The notes beneath the pieces are model-generated. The model saw nothing but the letters and a program-made list of their open reading frames with translations. It had not been told where the DNA came from and made no database searches. The translations under genes were made by a program, and so were the position numbers. Below are positions 14,100-15,871 of a stretch of DNA of 21,948 nucleotides, one piece after another; the stretch's first letter is position 1, and each line of letters starts with the position of its first letter. Origin of the DNA: a virus; the IMG/VR virus record IMGVR_UViG_3300032217_000784, positions 1 through 21,948 of that record. The stretch is one strand, 5' to 3'.

Positions 14100-15002
14100 T
14101 TAGTCTTCTGCTAATTTCTCAAAGTAACTCAAAGATTCGTCATCGTCATCTTCTGATGCATCAGCAACAGTCTTCTTTGCTTTACTTGCTACTGGAGCAG
14201 CTGGTGCGCTCTTTGCAACGATAGAAGAGATTGAATCGCTATCGCCACCACCATCAAGACCAAGAACTTTATTGAGTTTAGCTTTCAATTCGTCATACGA
14301 TTTGAAATTCTTTGGATCAAGAAACTCAGACAATGCATGTTCTTGTTTCCAAATGTTCTCCAAATCATCATCATCTTGCGACAATGGTGCTGGACGATCA
14401 AACTCAGACTTGTCGTAGTTTTGATATCCTTCAACTTTACGAATTTTTAGCTTAAAGTTAGCACCTTCCCAAAGATCGAATGGATTCGTTGGCGCTTCAT
14501 CTTCAAATTCGGGATTCATCAAATCGTTTAACTTGTCAAAGATTTTCTTGCCAAACTTATACAAAAAGACTTTTCCTTCATTCTCAGGATTGGCTGGGTC
14601 TTTAACAACATAGATGTTGCTAATGTATTGCAACTTACGCTTCTGCTTACGCGCAACGTCTTTGTTTGAATCGATACCAGAGTTCCAAAGAACTGTGTTA
14701 TGTTCTGAGACTGGATCTTTTTTGTTTAGCGTCGTAAGAGAGTTTTCGATATACCATCCACCTGGACCTTGAAACGAGTGCTGAAATATTTGAATCCAGG
14801 GAACGTCTTCGCCTTCTGGTGCGGGAAGAAAGCGGATTGTTGCGAAACCGTTACCAGCTTTATCTACTGTGGGTTTCCAGAATCGAAGGTCTTCGTATGA
14901 TTTTTTACCTTCTTCTTTGTTTGAGAGTTTAGAAACTTCTTGTGTTAGTTTCTCTAAGTCCTTGTTGCGGGACTTCTTTAGATCTGCAAATGATGATGCC
15001 AT
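14100..15002 (-). CDS. 32: Single-stranded DNA-binding protein gp32-like
   Basis: 300 aa (T4 gp32 is 301 aa). The core is well matched: NGFATIRFLP (51-60), GGWYIENSLTT, NIYVVKDPANPENEGKVFLY with KFGKKIFDKLND (about 129-160), and PFDLWEGANFKLKIRKVEGYQNYDKSEF, all parallel to T4 gp32. A basic N-terminal LKKSRNKD plays the part of the cooperative-binding segment, and the C-terminal tail is acidic (SEDDDDESLS), as needed for contacts with replication proteins. There is not one cysteine, so the T4 zinc site (His plus three Cys) is gone; only the histidine (FQHSF) has a counterpart. The start has GAGGT eight nt upstream. A perfect late promoter lies 78-85 nt upstream, and a leader hairpin suggests translational self-control. 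Confidence 0.95.
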   Translation of the reverse strand: MASSFADLKKSRNKDLEKLTQEVSKLSNKEEGKKSYEDLRFWKPTVDKAGNGFATIRFLPAPEGEDVPWIQIFQHSFQGPGGWYIENSLTTLNKKDPVSEHNTVLWNSGIDSNKDVARKQKRKLQYISNIYVVKDPANPENEGKVFLYKFGKKIFDKLNDLMNPEFEDEAPTNPFDLWEGANFKLKIRKVEGYQNYDKSEFDRPAPLSQDDDDLENIWKQEHALSEFLDPKNFKSYDELKAKLNKVLGLDGGGDSDSISSIVAKSAPAAPVASKAKKTVADASEDDDDESLSYFEKLAED

Positions 15003-15075
15003 AGTGTGTTACCTCGTATTAAAATGTATAAATGTGTATTACTGTGTAATTAAAGTATATGTAGATTTCTCTACA
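15003..15075 (-). promoter_or_regulatory. gp32 mRNA leader with 5'-end hairpin, candidate autoregulatory operator
   Basis: On the minus strand, TGTAGA-GAAA-TCTACA (15075-15060) is a 6-bp stem with a GNRA tetraloop. The start predicted from the late promoter (near 15074) falls at the hairpin's 5' edge. Between it and the GAGGT site (15015-15011) the leader is A/U-rich and nearly unstructured, apart from a weak ATTAC-ACA-GTAAT hairpin (15050-15038). In T4, gp32 represses its own mRNA by nucleating on a 5' structure (a pseudoknot) and coating an unstructured leader; this layout is similar, though no pseudoknot pairing is evident. Confidence 0.45.
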
Positions 15076-15079
15076 ACTT

Positions 15080-15087
15080 TATTTATA
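15080..15087 (-). promoter_or_regulatory. T4-type late promoter TATAAATA before gp32
   Basis: The minus strand carries a perfect match to the T4 late promoter octamer, in the intergenic region upstream of gp32. As -13 to -6 it predicts a transcript start near 15074 and a leader of about 72 nt. This box is recognised by gp55-type sigma with gp33 and the gp45 clamp; gp33 is encoded just upstream. Confidence 0.75.
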
Positions 15088-15110
15088 AGACTTTGTGTCT
15101 TATTCTTTGG

Positions 15111-15156
15111 CAATACTAGGGCGCAAAGTGGTTTATTACTTTTGATCTTAGTATTG
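15111..15156. other. Nested inverted repeat between the 138-aa gene and gp32
   Basis: CAATACTA (15111-15118) and TAGTATTG (15149-15156) form an 8-bp outer stem. AAAGT (15125-15129) and ACTTT (15138-15142) form an inner stem, with six bases between the stems on each side. There is no U-tract, so it is not a standard terminator. It could be an mRNA-processing or protein-binding site between the 138-aa gene and gp32. Function unknown. Confidence 0.4.
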
Positions 15157-15187
15157 TTGTTCAATGTTTTTAGTAGTAGAACTGGAA

Positions 15188-15604
15188 TCATTGTTCTTCA
15201 ATCTTTAATGGACCAGAAACATTGATTTCGCAATCAACAGATACCCATCCATCTTGTTCTAATCCCCATGTGCCGTCTTCTTCATAGATTGAATTGAATG
15301 CTTCTCTATCTTCTTCTGGCATGTTACTTGGAAAATCCCAATCTTCCCAAACACCATCTTGTGTGTCAAAATCAAATACATCACCAAAGTCTTCATATAG
15401 ATCAGTTCCAACACTCGAATCATATGATGCTAACCATTGTTCGATGGTAAGATCATCTGGTGCTGGTACTGTAAATTTACCCCAGCGCCAACCCATGTTT
15501 TGTTGGACCATGTAGTCGTTTTTTCTCCAGTAACAAATGTCGTTGATACATTTTTTGTGTTCTGGAGTAATGATCCAAACTTTGTCGTTAACTTCTGGTT
15601 CCAT
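15188..15604 (-). CDS. Acidic 138-aa protein of unknown function between gp33 and gp32
   Basis: 138 aa, very acidic and rich in tryptophan. The N-terminal 55 residues (NDKVWIITPEHKKC..., MGWRWGKFTVP) look like a small beta domain. The second half has repeated Asp/Glu/Trp segments (YEDFGDVFDFDTQDGVWEDW, NMPEEDREAF) and ends SGPLKIEEQ. I know no function. In T4 the gene between 33 and 32 is 59, the helicase loader; this protein shows no resemblance to gp59 and is much shorter. It begins 3 nt after gp33 with GAGGA before the ATG, so it is co-transcribed from the sigma70-type promoter. Its charge would fit a partner of a DNA-binding protein or a DNA mimic, which is speculation. Confidence 0.8.
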   Translation of the reverse strand: MEPEVNDKVWIITPEHKKCINDICYWRKNDYMVQQNMGWRWGKFTVPAPDDLTIEQWLASYDSSVGTDLYEDFGDVFDFDTQDGVWEDWDFPSNMPEEDREAFNSIYEEDGTWGLEQDGWVSVDCEINVSGPLKIEEQ

Positions 15605-15607
15605 AGT

Positions 15608-15847
15608 TTAGTCCTCATCGTCTAGTGGTAGTCTTGCTTTTTGGGGAATCAATCTAGCTTTCATTGCTTCGCTTTCAATCGTAGCTTTCATCTTTGGTGT
15701 AATGAGTGCTGCCGCTGTTTCGACTTCAATCTTCTTCCGTTCACAATATTCTAGAATCGTGTCTATCATTGTAATCGGCTGTAGCTGTTTTTGCAAGGAT
15801 TTGATTTCTCCTTCAAACTCTTTTTGAGTTAGAATTTTAAGATTCAT
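15608..15847 (-). CDS. 33: Late transcription accessory protein gp33-like
   Basis: 79 aa. I choose the ATG at 15847, with AGGA seven nt upstream, over a TTG six codons earlier. The core MIDTILEYCERKKIEVETAAALITPKMK, followed by ATIESEAMKARLIP, matches the aquatic-phage form of gp33 (a helix with DAV-HYCE, then IEVE--AKLI, then K-KIE-EA). gp33 binds the flap of RNA polymerase and, with the sigma-like gp55 and the gp45 clamp, activates late promoters. It is shorter than T4 gp33 (112 aa) and ends LPLDDED, so a T4-style hydrophobic clamp-binding tail is not obvious. It sits directly behind a sigma70-type promoter and upstream of gp32, as in T4. Confidence 0.82.
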   Translation of the reverse strand: MNLKILTQKEFEGEIKSLQKQLQPITMIDTILEYCERKKIEVETAAALITPKMKATIESEAMKARLIPQKARLPLDDED

Positions 15848-15871
15848 AGTTTTCCTATTGAACAAAGAATA

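Follow-up and report, generated by a model that had tools for sequence, protein, structure and literature searches.

A ladder of phased words in phage gene 32 leaders, with a late promoter octamer and plain 5' hairpin in some, as a candidate translational operator

Leaders of gene 32 from several groups of phages carry a ladder of short words that recur roughly every 10 nt. This regularity is widespread across gp32 leaders and open to test, and the ladder words are probably docking sites through which gp32 shuts off its own production. The pitch is shared and the words change, which makes the regularity directly testable. The anatomy of these leaders, its conservation, the period and, in one group, compensation within a hairpin stem are observed directly. 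The analysis began from the window, a virus record of the IMG/VR type with 21,948 bases, for which a first-pass annotation had read the gp32 leader as an autoregulatory operator. The promoter octamer, hairpin and unpaired leader of that reading stood, its GNRA loop did not, and both the ladder and an overlapping 50-codon ORF had been overlooked; the phased repeats are a stronger sign of an operator than the hairpin. The features of the window are as follows.

14100 to 15002, minus strand: gene 32, single-stranded DNA-binding protein of 300 aa, the presumed repressor (P0001 against phrog_224, E 6e-119)
15012 to 15015, minus strand: GAGG Shine-Dalgarno sequence of gp32
15016 to 15019, minus strand: ladder word ATAC at -17, abutting the Shine-Dalgarno sequence
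15026 to 15029, minus strand: ladder word ATAC at -27
15036 to 15039, minus strand: ladder word ATAC at -37
15046 to 15049, minus strand: degenerate ladder word TTAC at -47
15055 to 15058, minus strand: ladder word ATAC at -56
15060 to 15075, minus strand: hairpin HP2, TGTAGA-GAAA-TCTACA, where the transcript is predicted to begin (-5.2 kcal/mol)
15080 to 15087, minus strand: TATAAATA, T4-type late promoter octamer (exact match)
15085 to 15103, minus strand: second hairpin HP1, ATAAGAC-ACAAA-GTCTTAT, abutting the octamer (alignment A2)
15039 to 15191, minus strand: 50-codon ORF (MIPVLLLKT...LCALVLPK...), absent from the ORF list
15608 to 15865, minus strand: gp33-like co-activator of late transcription, three genes upstream of gp32 (phrog_254)

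The gp32 gene starts with the ATG at 15002 on the minus strand, and its best named match is Synechococcus phage S-CREM1 (68% identity over residues 4-246). The minus-strand order is the gp33-like gene, a 138-aa ORF, the 50-codon ORF and gp32, and the start of the 50-codon ORF overlaps the stop of the 138-aa ORF (ATGA). A late transcription factor of the kind that belongs with a T4-type late promoter is present within the window fragment, as the gp33-like ORF matches the late promoter transcriptional regulator phrog_254 over 15611-15847 (E 4e-13). The 50-codon ORF has no convincing match in PHROG (best E 0.054), and L003, L007, L018, L019, L026, L093 and L094 have ORFs of 54-71 aa at the same position, with a motif resembling CALLLPK. 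A megablast of the region against named phages returned a single partial match, located inside gp32.

The gp32 leader holds the only chain of at least three ATAC words at 8-12 nt on either strand of the whole window. It has 8 matches of 4-mers at lags 9-11 against 2.7 in shuffled sequence (P 0.034), and its period score is the second-best among separate 60-nt stretches of the window. The signal in this leader alone is modest, and its weight comes from the periodicity across the gp32 leader family. ATAC words about 10 nt apart were first noticed by reading leaders side by side; the period test avoided the choice of a word by counting identical 4-mers at every lag in the 60 nt before gp32, against dinucleotide shuffles. 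The leader set was built from the window and 552 loci; of these 553 sources, 541 were usable, having a start codon preceded by 70 nt or more. Many loci came from the same contigs through different scans, and merging identical 70-nt leaders left 335. Observed and expected counts were 163/39 at lag 10 in group A (76 non-redundant leaders, z 14.9), 86/20 at lag 9 in the marine group B (55 leaders, z 10.9), 50/16 at lag 10 in the Straboviridae-like group C (21 leaders, z 7.3) and 18/3, with the peak within lags 9-10, in the few rows of group D (six leaders, z 5.7). Groups A and B have secondary peaks near lags 18-20. The words differ between groups (AUAC; AAUCC/AAAUC; ACUGU), and enriched 5-mers include AATAC and ATACA in A, AATAC, CAAAT and AATCC in B, and AACTG and ACTGT in C. 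Counted within 7-13 nt, the mean pitch is 9.7 in A (109 spacings) and 9.4 in B (59 spacings), and three close ACTGT spacings in C average 11.0. Two group words 8-12 nt apart are lacking from 27/76 leaders in A, 20/55 in B and 15/21 in C.

Two control sets, each of 150 non-redundant leaders from genes other than gp32, lack the lag-10 peak (32/41 and 44/47); they were drawn from the first 219 distinct loci of the same kind, with later loci excluded. The set in which some leaders overlap upstream genes has an excess at lag 9 (67/42, z 3.1), accompanied by raised counts at lags 6, 12, 18 and 24 and attributed to codon periodicity. Under a redundancy limit of 60%, the lag-10 peak stays in A (14 leaders, z 6.6) and C (9 leaders, z 4.8), in both cases also with the Shine-Dalgarno region left out, and B (13 leaders) keeps the period only with that region. 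Ranked by period score within single phages, the gp32 leader is first of 187 in G002, first of 143 in the part of PVA8 analysed apart from one half-N artefact ranked above it, and in a tie within the first four in P-SSM3 (166 leaders) and T2 (226). The pattern ATAC-N4-7-ATAC-N4-7-ATAC has 27 matches in 16/18 records. Of these, 18 are in gp32 leaders, from 12 records, and the remaining 9 are the same in number as the matches of a reversed control pattern (9); the sole match in 246,888 bases of PVA8 is the gp32 leader. In group A, ATAC words are concentrated from -40 to -6 and are almost gone behind the AUG. The highest period score among the T2 leaders belongs to that of the gp18 tail sheath gene (MH751506.1, 94472-94531), which has ATTAAAG-type repeats at about 11 nt. 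By homology and Shine-Dalgarno position, the annotated gp32 start may be 75 nt too late in P-SSM2 (L083) and 45 nt too early in S-CREM1 (L081); starts misplaced in this way cause the ladder to be read as coding sequence.

An A/U-rich and mostly unpaired leader up to the ribosome-binding site, as the first-pass annotation described, was borne out by prediction. The window leader is A/U-rich and folds no better than shuffles (z +0.98), its centroid fold is unpaired and its minimum-energy fold pairs part of it weakly, so that by prediction a less structured stretch of more than 40 nt includes the ribosome-binding site. The mean fold z of group A leaders is +0.52; leaders of groups A and C fold less than shuffles, and those of B and D do not differ from them. 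An A/U-rich stretch that adjoins the Shine-Dalgarno sequence and is predicted to be unpaired in groups A and C, before a gene whose product is needed in large amounts, would also suit a ribosome standby site or S1-type enhancer that raises gp32 translation without being bound by gp32. This explanation of the repeats is improbable: a pitch of about 10 nt with group-specific words should be unnecessary for S1, the ladder is absent from the leaders of other genes, and the T4 precedent is one of repression (PMC535899).

In the window the ladder lies behind the perfect late octamer that the first-pass annotation had claimed, an exact TATAAATA at 15087-15080 that is identical across seven aligned close loci; the count of TATAAATA in the window is at chance level (2 matches, 2.6 expected). 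The 6-bp hairpin with a GAAA loop claimed for the transcript 5' end is likewise there: HP2 (arms 15075-15070 and 15065-15060, loop 15069-15066) begins four bases 3' of TATAAATA. At T4-type late promoters the start lies roughly a helical turn past the octamer (PMC2988020), and a start at this distance would place the 5' end of the transcript at the base of the HP2 stem. The literature searched on cyanophage transcript starts gave no gp32 start. HP1 would be present only in read-through transcripts; one of its pairs in alignment A2 is A-U in 2/6 and G-C in 2/6 distinct rows, and its register is not formed by two L010-type rows. Only a simple hairpin is apparent in the window leader. Rfam gave no match in the window or in six other loci, T2 included, a result that is uninformative because T2 itself is also unmatched.

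Conservation of the hairpin in close relatives, absence of which the first-pass annotation had named as grounds for refutation, was found. Octamer and hairpin are kept in L001, L002, L003 and L111 (gp32 identity 96-99%), with stem substitutions that still pair as G-U at the inner pair of L111 and the outer pair of L002. A scan with a pattern that fixed only the octamer and the 5' arm matched 103 stretches, and a stem of at least 6 bp is present in 8/8 stretches with a gp32 homologue compared to 20/95 others, where many of the 95 are near-identical and 6/8 of the gp32 stretches are previously found records. L010 and L094, which are 88% identical, have the stem TGTAGAG/CTCTACA with the loops TCTA and GGCA. 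The GNRA loop, put forward as a defining part, was rejected as the key feature because the loop differs (GAAA, TCTA, GGCA) on nearly the same stem.

HP2 could instead be due to chance together with the coding constraint of the enclosing 50-codon ORF, of which the 3' end (15191-15039) holds the promoter octamer, HP2 and the first ladder words, and in which HP2 is read as the codons V-E-K-S-T. Five of the seven aligned W-clade loci are mutually close, and formal covariation across the seven (six distinct) is not above shuffles, the score being reached in 88/500 with an ungapped alignment that does not keep the two L010-type rows in register. The chance of such an origin is nevertheless judged to be small, because L010 and L094 keep the stem in a hairpin that is 2 nt longer and has other loops, so that the reading frame behind it is shifted. 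Six loci that lack a gp32 homologue (L595, L607, L640, L556, L579, L597) have a hairpin directly behind TATAAATA all the same.

Hairpins also occur at the same place in distant phages. The 335 distinct gp32 leaders contain 58 exact octamer sites with enough downstream sequence, which were reduced to 33 non-redundant sites by removing any at least 70% alike over 30 nt. A hairpin that begins within 10 nt of the octamer reaches -2 kcal/mol or better at 21/33 sites and -4 kcal/mol or better at 16/33, compared to 23% and 10% of shuffled sequences. Octamers before ORFs other than gp32 have such hairpins at 5/49 and 4/49 sites respectively (Fisher P 4e-7 and 4e-5), these 49 being unthinned for redundancy and taken from four phages (P-SSM3, most of T2, G002 and part of PVA8). 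The difference is weak (P 0.027) from a smaller control of 20 late promoters in flanking loci, 8 of which reach -2 kcal/mol. No hairpin of -2 kcal/mol is formed in this register at 12/33 of the gp32 sites, including that of T2, which has no such hairpin directly behind its octamer and for which the published element is a pseudoknot. Of the two parts, the ladder seems the more common and the hairpin an optional one, because many relatives (e.g., L004-L009) have neither TATAAATA nor such a hairpin before gp32 and keep the ladder. In place of the hairpin, L007, L009, L031 and other group A leaders have a TTATGA-N4-6-GTGGACAAG block, which we take to be DnaA-box-like, at about -70 to -45; its exact matches number three in 11 records, all in gp32 leaders. 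A general promoter role for this block was rejected: 6/19 matches with one mismatch are at gp32, and the other 13 do not exceed the 15 of the reversed control.

These distributions bear on a division of roles in which the ladder is the gp32 operator and the hairpin merely stabilizes the 5' end of the late mRNA against 5'-end-dependent decay, with no part in repression. The hairpins at other octamers (5/49, 8/20 and, in the relatives scan, 20/95 loci with at least 6 bp) and the free variation of loops, and of stems between groups, would fit a stabilizer, but hairpins are enriched at gp32 over other octamers, and many group A leaders without a hairpin bear the other 5' block, of which exact matches are at gp32 only. 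A purely stabilizing hairpin is thus considered unlikely, although it carries some weight.

A hairpin of the GCTAC...GTAGC type often stands directly behind TAAATA in the marine cyanophages. Of 72 distinct marine leaders, 39 have TAAATA; setting aside nine (four with a hairpin of another shape, five with none that is good), dropping two duplicates and adding L082 (TACATA) gave 29 rows, with L260, L303 and L312 shifted by hand, and this choice leans towards structure. The other 32 leaders have neither TAAATA nor such a hairpin in this register. Within the 29 rows, 94.2% of stem cells are paired, compared to at most 65% when slid, and pair changes on both sides occur in 13 cells compared to 2.4 in shuffles (0/500 as high). 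These changes are confined to 2/6 pairs (C-G/U-A/G-C and U-A/C-G); the counts of pairs changed on both sides and of pair types are not above shuffles (301/500 and 280/500), and relatedness can raise the other covariation measures. Compensating changes, proposed as a check in the first-pass annotation, were found at two of six pairs in the marine cyanophages and not by formal covariation in the W-clade loci. Marine leaders without TAAATA (e.g., L270, L288) have a recurring GTACACA-AAGCCAAATC block, which sits behind an early-type promoter and just upstream of the repeats.

A pitch near the helical turn, with the group C spacings averaging 11.0, and the overlap of a marine hairpin arm with an early -10-like sequence would be expected if the leader were a DNA element, with helix-phased words for a DNA-binding protein or an architecture belonging to the promoter. 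Such an element is very unlikely, and we argue for recognition of RNA rather than DNA, because the pitch in A and B and the second peaks at 18-20 fall below multiples of 10.5, the group A ladder ends at the start codon, and the marine stems change sequence and keep their pairing.

In T4, gp32 represses its own mRNA, and its binding to a 5' pseudoknot presumably sets off cooperative spread; the operator consists of this pseudoknot and a less structured stretch of UUAAA repeats that includes the ribosome-binding site, both essential (PMC535899). The gene 32 operator of T4, T2 and RB69 (PMC535899, PMC3014915) has the same location in the 5' leader and the same plan as the leader analysed here: structure at the 5' end, then a less structured stretch of repeated words with the ribosome site. 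A pseudoknot stands where the window has a plain hairpin, placed at the 5' end predicted for a late transcript, and the repeat word is UUAAA/UAAA where the window has AUAC at a pitch of about 10 nt. With a different word and only a simple hairpin apparent, the leader is not classed as a T4 pseudoknot operator. RB49 also has a T4-type gp32 without the T4 pseudoknot, but its leader is reported to lack a conserved pseudoknot or A+U-rich stretch near the ribosome-binding site (PMC3014915), whereas the leader here has a hairpin and a ladder. The gene 43 operator of T4 and RB69 is a plain hairpin upstream of the ribosome-binding site that is bound by a self-repressing replication protein; its loop bases matter (PMC3014915), whereas here the loop is unconserved and repeats follow. 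The same review calls for study of diverse phages (PMC3014915). No report of phased words in gp32 leaders was found in the literature searched, which covered open-licence papers and is weak evidence of absence. By analogy, the leader may work like the T4 gene 32 operator with other parts, which is ordinary in principle.

On balance we favor, by analogy with T4 and with some reserve, a gp32 translational operator in which a plain hairpin takes the place of the pseudoknot and phased words take the place of UUAAA. Where transcription starts, that gp32 binds and represses, and what the hairpin does are inferred, as follows. Late RNA polymerase would start at TATAAATA, and the transcript would open with the short hairpin; the unpaired ladder of AUAC-type words, spaced about 10 nt apart, would reach the ribosome site and stop at the AUG. 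When gp32 is in excess over free single-stranded DNA, its monomers would occupy the ladder in register, with a single monomer to each word, and would thereby cover the ribosome site; the structured 5' end would assist them, either by nucleating the binding or by acting as a block. The occluded site of T4 gp32 is 8+/-1 nt (PMC12424627) or about 7 nt (PMC3016280), and a paper on UvsX gave no value for it. The ladder pitch is 1-2 nt longer than the T4 site, so that at pitches of 9.7 and 9.4 a single monomer on each word is plausible, not exact. A further proposal, to which we give a little less than an even chance, is that the leader is a molecular ruler in which each word docks one monomer, the pitch is the footprint of gp32 on RNA, and the words (AUAC, AAUCC, ACUGU, T4 UUAAA) co-evolve with the base preference of the protein. 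If this were true, the mRNA of a nominally sequence-independent single-stranded DNA-binding protein would disclose which bases that protein prefers, and the preference would be specific to the clade.

The gp32 proteins were compared as well: in an alignment of P0001 with T2 gp32 (alignment A3), the cyano-type gp32 has other residues at the zinc-site cysteines of T2, positions that we take to be zinc ligands, and PVA8 keeps the cysteines.
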